64,000 nt of DNA from Alcanivoracaceae bacterium (GTDB lineage: Bacteria > Pseudomonadota > Gammaproteobacteria > Pseudomonadales > Alcanivoracaceae): contig JARGOL010000017.1 of NCBI GenBank assembly GCA_029212745.1, forward strand, positions 1 through 64,000, given 5' to 3'. A program made the position numbers and the translations under genes. A model generated the notes under the pieces. The model ran no database searches, was not told the DNA's origin, and saw only the letters and a list, made by a program, of their open reading frames with translations. Below, piece by piece: positions 43,176-59,599 of this stretch. Each line of letters opens with the position of its first letter. The stretch's first letter is position 1.

Positions 43176-46110
43176 CTTTTACCAGCTGTTTGCGATTGCG
43201 GTCGGCTACCTGCTGTTTTTGTTCCTGGTGGCCTGGATCACCGACCGCGGCTACCTGCCTGCGCGGCTGGTCCGTCACCCGGTGGTGTACGTGCTGTCCC
43301 TGGGCGTGTTCTGCAGTGCCTGGGCCATTTATGGCAGCGTCGGTTATGCCCACCAGTACGGCTACAACTACGTGGCCTACTTCCTCGGCATCTCCGGCGC
43401 CTTCCTGCTGGCGCCGATCCTGCTGGCACCGATCCTTCGCCTGACCACGACCTACCAGCTGGGATCGCTGGCTGACCTGTTTGCATTCCGCTTCCGCAGC
43501 CGGGCGGCCGGCGCCCTGACCACCCTGATCATGCTCGCCAGCATGCTTCCGTTGCTGAGCCTGCAGATCAAGGCCGTGGCCGAATCCATGGAGGTCCTCA
43601 GCGGCGCCCCGGAGCCAATGAATATCGCCGCCTGGTTCTGCGGCCTGATCACCCTGTTCGCCATCCTGTTTGGCGCCCGCCACGCCACCGCCCGGGAAAA
43701 GCACGAGGGCCTGGTGGTGGCCATCGCCACCGAATCCCTGATCAAGCTGCTGGCCTTCGGCGCGGTGGCCCTGATAGGCCTGTTCGATGTCTTTGATGGC
43801 CCGGCCGGGCTCAGCGCCTGGCTGGAACAGCACCCGGAAATGCTGGCGCGGCTCTACTTTCCCCTGCAGGACGGCACCTGGCACAGCCTGGTGCTGGCAT
43901 TCTTCGTCTCCGCCGTGGTGATGCCGCACATGTTCTACATGGCGTTCACCGAAAACCTCAACCCGCGCGCACTTATCACCGCCAGCTGGGGCCTGCCACT
44001 GCTGCTGCTGGGCATGGCCATCTGCGTGCCCATCATTCTCTGGGCGGCCCTGCACGAACAGGTGGCGACACCGGCGGACTACTTTACCCTGGGCCTGAGC
44101 CACAACTTCGGCGGCAACGGCGCCGTGCTTGCCTACATTGCCGGCCTCGCCGGCGCCAGCGGCATGCTGATTGTCGCCACCCTGGCACTGTCGGCCATGT
44201 GCCTGCACCACTTCGTGCTACCGCTGCGTCGTCCGCAGCCGGGCGAAGACCTGTACCAGTGGCTGCTCTGGGCCCGGCGTATCCTGATCGGCGTGATCCT
44301 CGCCCTCGCCTATGTGTTCTACGCCTGGACCGGGCACCGGCACACACTGACCGAGCTCGGTGTGCTGTCGTTCGTGGCCACCCTGCAGTTTGTCCCCGGG
44401 CTGGTGGGCACCCTTTTCTGGCCCATGGCCAACCGCTTTGGCCTGTTCGCCGGCCTGATGGTGGGCTTCACCATCTGGATGCTGACCCTGGTCATTCCCA
44501 CCATTACCCCGGGCTGGCAATTCACCCCGCTGCTGGAATTACTGGATATCCGCTTTGCCGACCCGGCCAGCATCTGGCACACCATTGCCCTGTTCTCCGT
44601 TGGCGCCAACGGCGTGGTGTTCGTGCTGGTGTCACTGTTCACCCCGACCTCGCCGGCGGAACAGGGTGCCGCAGAGGCCTGCGCCGTGGACAGCCTGCGC
44701 CGGCCCTACCGCTGGGAACTGGAAGCCAATGACGTGGACGACTTCATCCAGTCACTGGGTGACCCGCTTGGCGCCGTTACCGCGCAGCGCGAAGTGGACC
44801 TGGCCCTGCGCGATCTCAACCTGTCGCGCAGTGAAACCCGGCCCTATGCCCTGCGGCGACTGCGCGACCAGCTGGAGACCAACCTGTCCGGCTTGCTAGG
44901 CCCGTCTGTGGCGCACCAGATGGTGGACGACCACCTGCCCTACAAACCCCAGGGCGAGGAGGAAACCAGCGAAGACATCCAGTTCATCGAGTCGCGCCTG
45001 GAGCAGTACCGTAACCGCCTCTCCGGCCTCGCCGCCGAGCTCGACAGCCTGCGCCGCTTTCACCGCCAGACACTGCTTGAGCTTCCCATGGGCGTGGTCA
45101 GCCTGGGCCAGGACGGCGAGATCATCGGCTGGAACCTGGCCATGGAAACCCTCACCGGCATCAGCGGCCGGCGCATGGTGGGCTCGCGCCTGGCCAACCT
45201 GCCGCAACCCTGGCGCGCCCTGTTCCTGGAATTTGCCATGGGTGACATCAGCCGCATTCCCCAGCAACAGATCCAGGTGGACGGCGAATCGCGCTGGCTC
45301 AGCCTGCACAAGTCGGTCATCCACGGCTCCCTCGACGGAGAGCGGGATGCCGGCCAGGTAATCGTGGTGGAAGACATCACCGATCTGCGGGCACTGGAAA
45401 GCCGCCTGGCGCACAACGAGCGGCTGGCATCCATCGGCCGCCTGGCGGCTGGCGTGGCCCATGAAATCGGTAACCCGGTCACCGCCATCGCCTGCCTGAC
45501 CCAGAACCTGGCCCATGGCAGCGACGAGGAACTGAACCAGAACGCCGACCAGATCCTGGCGCAGACACGGCGCATTTCACGCATCGTCGAGTCACTGGTG
45601 ACGTTCAGCCACAGCGGCGGCCACTCACCCAGCGAAGAGGTGCCGGTTGCAGTCCACGATGTGGCCGACGAGGCCATCGCCCTGTTGCGCCTGGACCCGG
45701 ACCGCAAGCAGCAGGCATTCGACAACGGCATCGCCACAGGCATCGAGGTGCGTGGCGACCCGCAGCGACTGCTGCAGGTATTCGTCAACCTGCTCACCAA
45801 CGCCTCGGATGCCACCGACAACAGTGACCCGATCTGCCTGCAGGCCAGCACCGACAGCGATGTGGTCACCATCACGGTGGAAGACCGCGGTCACGGCATC
45901 CGCCGCGAACTGCAGGACACCCTGTTCGAACCCTTCGTCACCAGCAAGCCACCGGGCAAGGGAACCGGGCTTGGACTGGCGCTGGTTTACAGTATTATCG
46001 AGGATCATCATGGCAGTATTCAGGTTGACAGCCCCATCGTTCACGACCGGGGCACGCGCTTTACACTGAAATTGCCACGGTACCGGCAAAGCACACAGGT
46101 CCAGTCATGA
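43165..46110 (+). CDS. cbrA: Sensor histidine kinase CbrA with SLC5-type transporter domain
   Basis: Membrane sensor of the CbrA/CbrB system that governs carbon-nitrogen balance and amino-acid use. The 981-residue protein joins a sodium/solute symporter domain of 12-13 helices (about 1-500), a linker, a PAS domain (about 625-735), a HisKA domain with GVAHEIGNPVTA (His near 766) and an ATPase domain with GTGLGLALVYSIIEDH. The ATG at 43165 overlaps cbrX; a TTG seven codons earlier is less likely. It overlaps cbrB by 4 bases. Whether the symporter half transports histidine here, as in Pseudomonas, is not visible. Confidence 0.95.
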   Translation: MGFSFYQLFAIAVGYLLFLFLVAWITDRGYLPARLVRHPVVYVLSLGVFCSAWAIYGSVGYAHQYGYNYVAYFLGISGAFLLAPILLAPILRLTTTYQLGSLADLFAFRFRSRAAGALTTLIMLASMLPLLSLQIKAVAESMEVLSGAPEPMNIAAWFCGLITLFAILFGARHATAREKHEGLVVAIATESLIKLLAFGAVALIGLFDVFDGPAGLSAWLEQHPEMLARLYFPLQDGTWHSLVLAFFVSAVVMPHMFYMAFTENLNPRALITASWGLPLLLLGMAICVPIILWAALHEQVATPADYFTLGLSHNFGGNGAVLAYIAGLAGASGMLIVATLALSAMCLHHFVLPLRRPQPGEDLYQWLLWARRILIGVILALAYVFYAWTGHRHTLTELGVLSFVATLQFVPGLVGTLFWPMANRFGLFAGLMVGFTIWMLTLVIPTITPGWQFTPLLELLDIRFADPASIWHTIALFSVGANGVVFVLVSLFTPTSPAEQGAAEACAVDSLRRPYRWELEANDVDDFIQSLGDPLGAVTAQREVDLALRDLNLSRSETRPYALRRLRDQLETNLSGLLGPSVAHQMVDDHLPYKPQGEEETSEDIQFIESRLEQYRNRLSGLAAELDSLRRFHRQTLLELPMGVVSLGQDGEIIGWNLAMETLTGISGRRMVGSRLANLPQPWRALFLEFAMGDISRIPQQQIQVDGESRWLSLHKSVIHGSLDGERDAGQVIVVEDITDLRALESRLAHNERLASIGRLAAGVAHEIGNPVTAIACLTQNLAHGSDEELNQNADQILAQTRRISRIVESLVTFSHSGGHSPSEEVPVAVHDVADEAIALLRLDPDRKQQAFDNGIATGIEVRGDPQRLLQVFVNLLTNASDATDNSDPICLQASTDSDVVTITVEDRGHGIRRELQDTLFEPFVTSKPPGKGTGLGLALVYSIIEDHHGSIQVDSPIVHDRGTRFTLKLPRYRQSTQVQS

Positions 46111-47456
46111 GCCACATTCTCATTGTCGAAGACGAACCGGTTATCCGGGGCGCGCTGCGCAAACTGCTGGAACGCCACGACCATTCCGTGGCCGAGGCGG
46201 AATCTGTGGAACAGGCCCATGATCTGGACCCGGCCGATTTCGACCTGGTCATCAGTGACCTGCGACTGCCGGGCGCGCCCGGCACCGAGCTGATGACCCG
46301 CTTCCCGTCCACGCCGGTACTGATCATGACCAGCTATGCCAGCCTTCGCTCGGCCGTGGATGCCATGAAGATGGGCGCGGTCGACTACATCGCCAAACCG
46401 TTTGACCACGACGAAATGGTCATGGCGGTGGACCGCATTCTCAAGGAAAAGCACATCAGCCGGCATAACGATGTCATGCGCGCCGACCTGGCCCGCAACT
46501 GGCCGGTAACCAACATCATCGGCGACAGCGACCCCATGCAGGCCTTGCTCGACCAGGTACGCAAACTGGCCAGCACCGACACCAGCGCCCTGATTCGCGG
46601 CGAATCCGGCACCGGCAAGGAATTGATTGCCCGCTCCCTGCACGAGCACAGCGAGCGCCGCAGCGCCCCGATCATCACCGTCAACTGCTCCGCCATCGCG
46701 GCCGAACAGCTGGAGGCCGAACTGTTCGGCGTGGAAAAAGGCGCTTTTGAGGGCGCCCACAGCAACCAGCGCGGCCTGGCCGAGTCCGCCGATGGCGGCA
46801 CCCTGTTCCTGGATGACGTCGACCACCTGCCGGTGGACGCCCAGGCACGCCTGCTGCGGCTGCTGGAAGAAGGCGAAATCCGCCGTGTGGGCAGCCTGGC
46901 CGGGCGCAAGATCAATGTGCGCATCATCGTCGCCACCCACAACGACCTGGCCGCCTGCGTCCAGCGCGGCGACTTCCGCGAAGACCTGTTCTACCGCCTC
47001 AACGTGGTGGAACTGCGCCTGCCACCGCTGCGCGAGCGTGGCCACGACCTGCAGCAGCTGGCGGACGCCGCCCTGGAGCGGGCCTGCGAACGGCTGGGCC
47101 GGCCCAACCTGTCGATCAGCGAAGAAGCCCGTGACGCCATGCAGCGCTATTACTGGCCGGGCAACGTGCGTGAGCTGGAAAACGCCATCGAGCGGGCCGC
47201 CATACTGGCGGAGGATGGGGCCATCAGTGCCGATCTGCTGGGCATCGACCCCAGCGCCAAGGCACCGCGGCAGCTGGCCGACCCGCAGGAGGAATTGTCG
47301 CTGGAGGATTACTTCGCCCGATTCGTGCTGGAGAACCAGGACCAGATGACCGAGACCGAGCTGGCCCGGAAACTGGGCATCAGCCGCAAGTGCCTGTGGG
47401 AACGCCGCCAGCGCCTGGGCATCCCGCGCAGCAAGCAGGCCAGCAGCGGCGGCTGA
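46107..47456 (+). CDS. cbrB: NtrC-family response regulator CbrB with variant GAFEGA loop
   Basis: Sigma-54-dependent activator paired with CbrA. The 449-residue protein has a receiver domain (phospho-acceptor Asp near 51 in ISDLRLPG), an AAA+ domain with GESGTGKE (Walker A, from 165) and LFLDDVDHL (Walker B), and a Fis-type HTH at the end (ELARKLGISRKCLWERRQRLG). The sigma-54 contact loop, normally GAFTGA, reads GAFEGA at residues 212-217. In Pseudomonas CbrB activates the sRNA gene crcZ, which lies directly downstream, as a CrcZ-like RNA does here. Confidence 0.95.
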   Translation: MSHILIVEDEPVIRGALRKLLERHDHSVAEAESVEQAHDLDPADFDLVISDLRLPGAPGTELMTRFPSTPVLIMTSYASLRSAVDAMKMGAVDYIAKPFDHDEMVMAVDRILKEKHISRHNDVMRADLARNWPVTNIIGDSDPMQALLDQVRKLASTDTSALIRGESGTGKELIARSLHEHSERRSAPIITVNCSAIAAEQLEAELFGVEKGAFEGAHSNQRGLAESADGGTLFLDDVDHLPVDAQARLLRLLEEGEIRRVGSLAGRKINVRIIVATHNDLAACVQRGDFREDLFYRLNVVELRLPPLRERGHDLQQLADAALERACERLGRPNLSISEEARDAMQRYYWPGNVRELENAIERAAILAEDGAISADLLGIDPSAKAPRQLADPQEELSLEDYFARFVLENQDQMTETELARKLGISRKCLWERRQRLGIPRSKQASSGG

Positions 47457-47467
47457 CGCCGACGAAC

Positions 47468-47485
47468 GGTTACCCTGGTGTTACC
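47468..47485 (+). promoter_or_regulatory. Candidate CbrB upstream activating sites for the CrcZ-like RNA
   Basis: GGTTACC (47468-47474) and TGTTACC (47479-47485) are direct repeats 11 bases apart, one helical turn, just after the cbrB stop. An inverted GTAACC lies at 47547-47552. TGTTAC-like half-sites are what I recall for CbrB binding in Pseudomonas. A GG (47530-47531) and GC (47541-47542) in AGGCTTCACGTTGCAAG resemble a sigma-54 -24/-12 pair but are one base too close. Confidence 0.4.
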
Positions 47486-47553
47486 TTCCTACACAGAATT
47501 CACACAGTTGCAGGCCTGACCCCTTAACAGGCTTCACGTTGCAAGCGTAACCC

Positions 47554-47814
47554 TTTGAATTTTAAAGCCTTCTTTCAATTTGCAAAGGCGGACACATATC
47601 GTCACGATTAACTCACGCCAGCTAACAACAACAACGACGGCGTAACAGGCTCTCAGCCACACAACAAAAACAACGGGCTGACACCAAGAACAACAACTCC
47701 AGAGCCGATGCAGTGTTTGGTCGCATAGCGACCGTTGGCAAAATCAGAAAGAAAACAATAACAACAATAGAATCAGCGCAATAGGGATCACAGGTTCGCC
47801 TGTGGTCCCTTTTT
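47554..47814 (+). ncRNA. crcZ: CrcZ-like small RNA (Hfq/Crc decoy)
   Basis: The cbrB-pcnB intergenic region has no good gene on either strand but carries four A-rich motifs of the AAN/CA type: AACAACAACAACG (from 47624), AACAAAAACAACGG (from 47661), AAGAACAACAACTCC (from 47686) and AAAACAATAACAACAATAG (from 47752). Such motifs bind Hfq together with Crc. In Pseudomonas CrcZ sits at this exact place, is activated by CbrB and sequesters Hfq to relieve catabolite repression. A GGTCGC-ATA-GCGACC hairpin (47719-47733) and a strong terminator complete it. The 5' end is a guess; about 260 nt is shorter than the roughly 400 nt of P. aeruginosa CrcZ. Confidence 0.8.
47783..47814 (+). terminator. Terminator of the CrcZ-like RNA
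   Basis: A 12-bp stem, AGGGATCACAGG with CCTGTGGTCCCT (one U-G pair), closes on a TTCG tetraloop and is followed by four T residues. A UUCG loop makes it unusually stable. Confidence 0.93.
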
Positions 47815-47934
47815 CAATTCTGGCCCCGGCAAATATGCCCGCGCGTGCAGCAGACCCCGGCAACCCAGCCTCCCGACTGTGTTCGCAAAGTGATACCATC
47901 GCGCACTTGCCCATCATGCGGAACACCCCAGCAC

Positions 47935-49302
47935 ATGTTGCGAAAACTTCCAGGCTTTATGACACGACTGATCGGAAGAGGTTCCTCGACCCGTTTGCCG
48001 GTGCCGGACATTCATACCCGTGATCACCATACGATCTCGCGCAAGGACATCAGCAAGCCCGCCCTTGATGTGCTCTACGGATTGCACAAGGCCGGCTACA
48101 AGGCGTTCCTGGTGGGCGGCAGCCTGCGTGACCTGCTCACTGGCGGCCACCCCAAGGACTTTGACGTCGCCACCGACGCACCCCCCGAGGCAGTGGAAAA
48201 GCTGTTCCGGCGCAGCCGCATCATCGGCCGGCGCTTTCGCATCGTTCATGTCTACTTCGGCCGTGATGTCATCGAGGTGGCCACCTTCCGGGCGCTCGCC
48301 GATGACCATGACGAGCAACGGCAGAGCGACGACGGCATGCTCCTGCGCGACAATGTCTACGGCACCATCGAGGAAGATGCGCTGCGCCGTGATTTCACCA
48401 TCAACGCGCTTTATTACAACATTGCCGACTTTACCCTTTATGACTTTGTCGGCAGCCTCAAGGACATCGAAAAGCGCCGCATCCGCCTGATTGGCGACCC
48501 GGAAACGCGCTATCGCGAAGACCCGGTGCGTATGCTGCGTGCGGCGAGATTTGCCGCCAAGATGCAGTTCGACATCGACCCGGCCACGGAAAAGCCGATC
48601 CATCAGCTTAACGAACTGCTCTATCAGGTGCCGGCGGCACGCCTGTTTGATGAAGTCCTGAAGCTGTTTCTTGGCGGCTATGCGCGCCAGTCACTGGCGA
48701 GCCTGCAACAGCTCGGACTGCTGGAAATCCTGTTCCCGTCGCTGGCCCATCACCTGCATGATTCCGCCGACAAGCAGGTCTGGCAACGCATGCTGGAAGC
48801 GGCCATGGACAACACCGATGCGCGCCTGGCGCGCGGCAAGCCGGTGACACCGGCGTTCCTGTATGCGGTGCTGCTGTGGCCGGATGTCCGCGCCCGTTAC
48901 CAGCAGCTTTGTGACAGCGGCATGCCGGCGGCACCGGCCATGAACAAGGCTGCCACCGCTGCCTTGCAGGAACAGCTGCAGGTGACTTCCATACCGAAAC
49001 GCTTTTCCTCGGTCATGCGTGATATCTGGGCATTGCAGACGCGCCTGCATGTCCGCCACGGCAACCGCGCCGAGGCACTGGTCACGCAGCCGAAGTTCCG
49101 CGCCGGTTACGACTTCCTGCTGCTGCGCGAAGAAAGCGGCGAACTGGAGCCGGGCCTGGGCGACTGGTGGACCCGCTACCAGGATGCCCACCCGGATCAG
49201 CGTGAGGCCATGGCCAGCAAGGTCAAGCCCAGCGGCGGCAAACCACGACGCAAACGCCGCCGCCGGCGCAAACCGCGGCCGGACAGTGGCGGCGATGACT
49301 GA
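47935..49302 (+). CDS. pcnB: Poly(A) polymerase I
   Basis: Adds poly(A) tails to RNA 3' ends, marking them for decay by PNPase and other exonucleases. The 455-residue protein has the nucleotidyltransferase motif LVGGSLRDLLTGGHPKDFDV with its D-x-D, RDFTINALYYN further on, and a strongly basic tail (PRRKRRRRRKPR). Starts at 47935 (MLRKLPGF) or 47959 (MTRLIGRG) fit the family; neither has a strong ribosome-binding site. It follows the CrcZ-like RNA and overlaps folK by 8 bases. Confidence 0.95.
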   Translation: MLRKLPGFMTRLIGRGSSTRLPVPDIHTRDHHTISRKDISKPALDVLYGLHKAGYKAFLVGGSLRDLLTGGHPKDFDVATDAPPEAVEKLFRRSRIIGRRFRIVHVYFGRDVIEVATFRALADDHDEQRQSDDGMLLRDNVYGTIEEDALRRDFTINALYYNIADFTLYDFVGSLKDIEKRRIRLIGDPETRYREDPVRMLRAARFAAKMQFDIDPATEKPIHQLNELLYQVPAARLFDEVLKLFLGGYARQSLASLQQLGLLEILFPSLAHHLHDSADKQVWQRMLEAAMDNTDARLARGKPVTPAFLYAVLLWPDVRARYQQLCDSGMPAAPAMNKAATAALQEQLQVTSIPKRFSSVMRDIWALQTRLHVRHGNRAEALVTQPKFRAGYDFLLLREESGELEPGLGDWWTRYQDAHPDQREAMASKVKPSGGKPRRKRRRRRKPRPDSGGDD

Positions 49303-54856: not shown

Positions 54857-55168
54857 ATGAAAAAGCTGGTAACTGCTTGCGTTATGGGCGGCGCTATTCT
54901 GCTCAGCGGCTGTCAGGCCCCGTATTCCGGCGGCATGATCTACAGCAACTACAATGCACCGGTAGACGTGCGCGACAATGCCACCGCCTGCGACAAGCGC
55001 GGAGAGTCGCAGATGGTGAACCTCTTCGGCATGTTCGCCGTCGGTGACGCCGGGGTGGAAGCCGCCAAGGCCAATGGCGGCGTCTCCAAGGTAGGCAACG
55101 TGGATATCAACTACCAGAGCCTGCTGGGGATTTTCGGCAAGACCACCACGGTGGTGTGCGGCGAGTAA
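54857..55168 (+). CDS. TRL-like small lipoprotein
   Basis: A 103-residue lipoprotein (signal peptide MKKLVTACVMGGAILLSGC, lipobox LSGC). The mature part follows the TRL-like family pattern: YSNYNAPVDV, a GDAGVEAAKANGGVSKVGNVD segment and a C-terminal GKTTTVVCGE. Family function is unknown. The ATG at 54857 follows CAGGGAG. The gene is flanked by two terminators, so it is transcribed alone. Confidence 0.8.
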   Translation: MKKLVTACVMGGAILLSGCQAPYSGGMIYSNYNAPVDVRDNATACDKRGESQMVNLFGMFAVGDAGVEAAKANGGVSKVGNVDINYQSLLGIFGKTTTVVCGE

Positions 55169-55180
55169 ATCGCCCACAGC

Positions 55181-55214
55181 ACAAAAAAGGCCGGCATCAG
55201 CCGGCCTTTTTTGT
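55181..55214. terminator. Bidirectional terminator after the TRL-like gene
   Basis: AAAAAAGGCCGG and CCGGCCTTTTTT pair across CATCAG. The T-tract on either strand makes it work in both directions. Confidence 0.92.
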
Positions 55215-59249: not shown

Positions 59250-59519
59250 TTAGCGACGCAGGCCGAGACGCTCGATGAGCTTCAGGTAGCGCTCACGGTC
59301 CTTGTTCAGCAGGTAGTCCAGCAGCTTGCGGCGCTGGTTTACCATGCGGATCAGGCCGCGACGGCTGTGGTGATCCTTCTTGTGGTCCTTGAAGTGGGAC
59401 TGCAGGGTGTTGATGTTCTCGGTGAGCAGGGCTACCTGCACTTCCGGGGAACCGGTGTCACCGTCGCCCTGGGCGAATTCCTTGACCACTTTTGCTTTCT
59501 GTTCTGCACTCAGTGCCAT
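59250..59519 (-). CDS. rpsO: 30S ribosomal protein S15
   Basis: Primary 16S-binding protein of the small subunit platform. The 89-residue length and [34 protein letters not shown] and [12 protein letters not shown] are characteristic. The ATG at 59519 has AAGATGG-type context with GGAG upstream. It lies between truB and pnp in the standard order. Confidence 0.99.
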
Positions 59520-59599
59520 CTTGCTTCTCCAAATATGCCAGTTGGGTGTCGCGCGCAGCCATGCATATTTATAGCTGCCGCCGGTTTAACTGATTAAAA

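Follow-up and report, generated by a model that had tools for sequence, protein, structure and literature searches.

In Pseudomonas aeruginosa, Hfq represses mRNAs through A-rich sequences at their ribosome-binding sites, Crc helps in this repression, and the small RNA CrcZ titrates Hfq (PMC4063720, PMC8395346). The main repressor in this species is Hfq, not Crc (PMC4063720), and a role for IHF at crcZ has been described (PMC8395346). Some pseudomonads, namely P. putida, P. syringae, and P. fluorescens, carry CrcY or CrcX as additional copies of the same class of A-rich Hfq decoy. A second relevant precedent comes from nitrogen control in alphaproteobacteria, where NtrC of both R. capsulatus and Caulobacter lacks the GAFTGA motif and is reported to act at sigma70 promoters (PMC10274813). 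Alcanivorax and its relatives are major marine oil degraders whose choice between carbon sources is poorly known. The main text of a dRNA-seq paper on A. dieselolei B-5 already states that Alcanivorax lacks Crc and looks elsewhere for the basis of carbon-source choice; that main text does not mention CrcZ or CbrB (PMC9788540).

The locus described here lies in a stretch of 64,000 nucleotides (the window) from the 3.3-Mb gammaproteobacterial genome of a member of the Alcanivoracaceae; judged by the CbrB tail, its closest named relatives are Alcanivorax/Alcanivoracaceae. Read off the ORF translations, its gene order is dksA–gluQ–cbrA–cbrB–[gap]–pcnB–folK–(a nucleoside kinase)–panB–panC–panD–acs, which we take to be the order around Pseudomonas crcZ as well. 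The gap of 478 bases (47457–47934) runs from the cbrB stop to a pcnB ATG at 47935. A previous sequence-only reading of this stretch had placed a CrcZ-like small RNA in the gap, at the position where Pseudomonas encodes CrcZ, and cbrB upstream and pcnB downstream are confirmed. Lying between cbrB and pcnB, where CrcZ is found, the predicted RNA is a positional ortholog of CrcZ. Its features and those of its promoter region are collected in Table 1.

Table 1. Features of the cbrB–pcnB region, in window coordinates.
Feature	Position	Strand	Remarks
cbrB	46107..47456	+	NtrC-family response regulator; loop GAFEGA, not GAFTGA; HTH tail kept
CbrB upstream activating site block, TGTTACCTTCCTACACAG	47479..47496	+	TGTTAC half kept in the family; GTAACA half degenerate here
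IHF-like site, TAACCCTTTGAAT	47548..47560	+	one mismatch to consensus YAANNNNTTGATW; same place in the Pseudomonas gene
-35-like box, TTGCAA	47580..47585	+	TTGC invariant (29/29); lies roughly at the place of the sigma54 -24 box TGGCAC of other families
-10-like box, CACGAT	47603..47608	+	CANNAT invariant; exactly 17 bp past the -35-like box in 29/29
CrcZ-like sRNA, predicted	47615..47814	+	about 200 nt; 5' end placed 7 nt past the -10 box; T-run of the terminator taken as 3' end
Hairpin H1 (ACGCC/GGCGT)	47615..47643	+	CA motif 1 (47624-47634) in the loop
Hairpin H2 (GGCTC/GAGCC)	47648..47706	+	loops hold CA motifs 2 (47663-47673) and 3 (47686-47696)
Hairpin H3 (GGTCGC ATA GCGACC)	47719..47733	+	hairpin present there in most relatives, sequence variable
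CA motif 4, AACAATAACAACAA	47754..47767	+	predicted single-stranded
Near-invariant element, AGAATCAGCGCA	47769..47780	+	follows CA motif 4 and precedes the terminator
Intrinsic terminator, AGGGATCACAGG-UUCG-CCTGTGGTCCCT plus T5	47783..47814	+	many compensatory changes in the family
pcnB	47935..49302	+	neighbor downstream of the gap; putative start codon

The predicted window RNA carries several A-rich (AAnAAnAA) Hfq motifs, as does CrcZ. The four separated CA motifs that the sequence-only reading had pointed out are borne out by a count of 4 such clusters on the plus strand of the gap, compared with a mean of 0.39 in dinucleotide shuffles, none of which (0/500) reached 4. The region also folds more stably than all 200 of 200 shuffles (z = -4.0), and each of the predicted folds leaves 86–100% of the CA-motif bases unpaired. 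The internal hairpin and UUCG-loop terminator of the same reading correspond to H3 and to the terminator in Table 1. H1 is clear in most relatives, and the window's own minimum-energy fold pairs these positions differently. The expected transcript of ~260 nt has to be shortened to about 200 nt because conserved promoter-like boxes put its start at about 47615.

With the sequences aligned at their predicted starts, most members of the family share one RNA plan, which runs 5' to 3' from H1 with motif 1 through H2 with the middle motif(s), H3, the last motif, and AGAATCAGCGCA to the terminator. The terminator stem covaries, with 5 pairs changed on both sides. In the gaps of 29 Alcanivoracaceae, A-rich clusters number 103 on the plus strand; the expectation from shuffles is 22, and the count for the opposite strand is 11. 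Conservation of the CA motifs and terminator in sister species, on which the first reading had staked its proposal, holds in the 28 other family loci aligned. A covariance model built on the last 77 positions of the RNA (R1) likewise finds exactly one locus in 35 of 36 family genomes, always adjoining cbrB, the missed genome being 64% complete. The same 77-position model found no second copy in Alcanivoracaceae and no match in 21 genomes that represent 21 other families of the order. On this comparative evidence, the gap contains a conserved predicted sRNA gene, present once per genome in Alcanivoracaceae. Most other families sampled also have A-rich clusters after cbrB, and such clusters occur in Pseudomonas, Microbulbifer, Spongiibacter, Zhongshania, Pseudohalioglobus, Aestuariicella, and Marinimicrobium; the same class of putative RNA is spread across the order. 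The element AGAATCAGCGCA is among the best conserved parts in the family and is absent from the other-family gaps checked. It may be a base-pairing or a protein site.

The RNA shares with Pseudomonas CrcZ (RF01675) the cbrB–pcnB position, the CbrB site, the IHF-like site, several A-rich Hfq motifs, and a terminator. Unlike Pseudomonas CrcZ, which is 407 nt long, it has a predicted length of about 200 nt, lacks a sigma54 box, has no Crc in its genome, and is present in a single copy; it would belong with CrcY and CrcX to the A-rich Hfq decoy class, whereas these are additional copies and no second copy was found in Alcanivoracaceae. An Rfam scan of the window at the gathering score (95 bits for RF01675) returned no CrcZ. 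When scanned permissively, RF01675 gave a score of 13.3 bits for the window, 28.5 and 24 for two relatives, and 307 for a Pseudomonas-type control locus. The suspicion that the sequence is too diverged for the standard family model was well founded, with 13 bits set against a 95-bit cut-off. An RF01675 search of the window's own genome gave no match, and its controls gave none either. The permissive scan also returned CyaR at 21.5 bits, a match rejected as arising only from an A-rich stretch plus the terminator. The RNA is best called CrcZ-like because its Rfam score is too low and it lacks both the sigma54 promoter and the Crc partner. No literature linking CrcZ with Alcanivorax, Marinobacter, or Cellvibrio was found in a search that left subscription journals mostly outside; CbrB and Alcanivorax were named together in a single paper found, which is on a metatranscriptome.

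The promoter region retains its upstream half and differs in its core. Like the TGTTAC...GTAACA site of CrcZ, the upstream site is recognizable by TGTTAC, found in 29/29 family loci at a phased distance, which is 112–114 bp to the -35-like box in most loci and 101–102 bp in the window and the nearest genera; the two distances differ by one helical turn. A strict sigma54 box, by contrast, occurs in 0/29 family loci versus 80/94 other loci, and several of the remaining 14 have close variants (e.g., TGGCAT) or else truncated or divergent gaps. Most of the other-family promoter regions inspected show a CbrB-type site and an IHF-like site, together with a clear TGGCAC…TGC box. A GG-N10-GC element was sought at the gap and was not found at the conserved place in the 29 family loci. 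These loci all contain TTGCNN-N17-CANNAT, a pattern seen in only 2/94 others and there far downstream, and its 17-bp spacer is poorly conserved. The boxes look like a putative sigma70-type promoter activated from an upstream site; since CANNAT is weak as a sigma70 -10 box, they may instead serve another sigma factor or form a site of some other kind.

This change in the promoter is matched in the activator. The GAFTGA loop, which contacts sigma54, is lost in 30/30 Alcanivoracaceae CbrB proteins examined, where it reads GAFEGA (window), GAFAGA, GAFAAA, or DALPGA, or is deleted, whereas 34 distinct CbrB sequences from other families keep it as G[AS]F[TS]GA. The loss extends to the most diverged family member (G006), whose AAA+ Walker A is a degenerate GEASTGKQ; most family members have GESGTGKE or a close variant. 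The HTH tail of CbrB is strongly conserved. Loop loss is specific to CbrB, since other NtrC-type regulators sampled in the family have GAFTGA or GSFTGA in 7 of 8 cases (the eighth is GAFTNA) and RpoN is still encoded. The NtrC of R. capsulatus and Caulobacter is likewise an NtrC-family activator that lost the sigma54 loop (PMC10274813); in contrast to these cases, Alcanivoracaceae involve CbrB, with a matching change visible in the target promoter.

Hfq is encoded in the genome of the window, and the Crc partner of CrcZ is missing from the family. With a P. aeruginosa Crc query, which matched the Pseudomonas-type genome G055 at 86% identity, strong homologs were found in nearly all other families and only remote matches in Alcanivoracaceae. 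A Crc profile gave at most one homolog per family genome, at E about 1e-20, and two such homologs were identified as exodeoxyribonuclease III (XthA) by the curated model PRK11756, with 453–457 bits against a cut-off of 280. Crc is absent in 46 family genomes, the lone homolog per genome being XthA where tested. The search for a crc gene elsewhere, which the first reading had suggested, thus ended, by query, profile, and PRK11756, in its absence from the whole family. That reading had predicted Hfq-dependent catabolite repression beyond the pseudomonads, of which the CrcZ-like, CbrB-linked sRNA stands and the classical system with Crc and sigma54 does not. In Hfq (G000:C16:7378-7554), position 25 is F; the corresponding distal-face residue of P. 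aeruginosa Hfq is Y25, and the ring is kept. Some of the other-family "Crc" matches (L117, L120, and L121) carry QET and WNIAH-type motifs and resemble an active exonuclease III belonging to the Crc lineage, so an exonuclease at this locus may have given rise to Crc. One further genome of the same order, G053, has neither a clear CbrB ortholog nor Crc, and the two may have been lost together elsewhere.

A search for potential Hfq targets covered 800 kb of stretches of the window's genome, with gene starts predicted by a simple script. AAnAAnAA occurs at 24 of 731 predicted gene starts, compared with 3–12 for 14 masks of the same A content (Poisson P about 2e-6 versus the mean mask and 1.5e-3 versus the highest), and once at an equal-sized place inside genes. 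In a P. aeruginosa control, the motif was found at 6/329 starts versus 1–3 for the masks, and in a presumed A. borkumensis genome the enrichment was marginal (15 versus a mask maximum of 14). The enrichment at gene starts fits an Hfq regulon, as supporting evidence only. An alkB-like gene in the window's genome (G000:C21; L256:4063-5226, minus strand) matches solved alkane 1-monooxygenases and shows a strong A-rich operator, AAAACAACAACAGGGGAGAG, immediately ahead of its start; it was set aside as a conserved target, since most relatives lack the motif (present in 3/30 loci, and in one of these the start is doubtful).

We consider it probable that this locus encodes a CbrB-controlled, Crc-free Hfq decoy and that CbrB without GAFTGA activates a sigma70-type promoter. 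From sequence we infer that the RNA is transcribed, that sigma70 is used, that CbrB activates it, that it binds Hfq, and that it acts as a decoy. On a poor carbon source, CbrA/CbrB would switch on the ~200-nt RNA, with CbrB lacking GAFTGA activating TTGCAW-N17-CANNAT from the old site about 102-113 bp upstream. The RNA would then titrate Hfq via its four A-rich (ARN)n sites, kept accessible in loops, and so free mRNAs whose ribosome-binding sites bear A-rich operators from repression by Hfq. Hfq and the decoy alone could run the same logic without Crc. As to origin, it seems fairly likely that the ancestor of Alcanivoracaceae lost Crc, that its CbrB shed the sigma54 loop, and that its crcZ promoter went from sigma54 to sigma70-type, leaving a Crc-free system of Hfq plus decoy.

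Other readings of the promoter boxes fit less well. The locus could hold an ordinary CrcZ of drifted sequence, whose promoter CbrB still activates with sigma54 via a divergent -24/-12 element with TTGCA as its -12; RpoN is kept, TTGCA is similar to a sigma54 -12 element, and the upstream and IHF-like sites are retained. The lack of GG-N10-GC at this place in 29 loci counts against it, as do the loss of GAFTGA from all family CbrB proteins examined, set against its retention in most other activators sampled, and a second invariant box exactly 17 bp downstream that sigma54 would not need, and we regard it as quite improbable. Still less credible is a reading in which the TTGC and CANNAT boxes form a protein-binding site and processed cbrB read-through is the sole source of the RNA: in P. 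aeruginosa, CrcZ can be released by cleavage of a cbrB-crcZ transcript as well (PMC8395346), but the boxes, their 17-bp spacing, and an RNA plan starting 7-8 nt downstream fit a promoter in 29/29 loci.

The role of the RNA may also have shifted. With Crc gone and AGAATCAGCGCA so well conserved within the family and absent from the other-family gaps checked, the RNA might be a CrcZ relic serving as a general Hfq sponge, or as a base-pairing sRNA that acts through this element, uncoupled from carbon catabolite repression. We judge this unlikely, given that the CbrB site is kept with its helical phasing, the HTH tail of CbrB is strongly conserved, and gene starts show an excess of A-rich motifs. 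A CbrB-controlled decoy acting on Hfq remains the preferred reading, and the putative circuit is a rewired version of the CrcZ circuit, not simply CrcZ in a new genus, because Crc is absent, the sigma54 promoter is gone, and the sigma54-contact loop of CbrB is lost. If true, a Crc-free Hfq/CrcZ system would mean that Crc is dispensable in nature and would offer a direct test of its contribution. The paired change in activator (GAFTGA loss) and target promoter (sigma54 box to sigma70-like, phase kept) would be a clear sigma-factor switch, assignable to the base of a single family.

Elsewhere in the window, a sub-threshold RsmZ match (55061-55214, plus strand) was rejected as a false positive made up of a coding ORF end plus a terminator, and an ordinary Ribosomal S15 leader (RF00114, 49.6 bits) lies at 59463-59582 on the minus strand.
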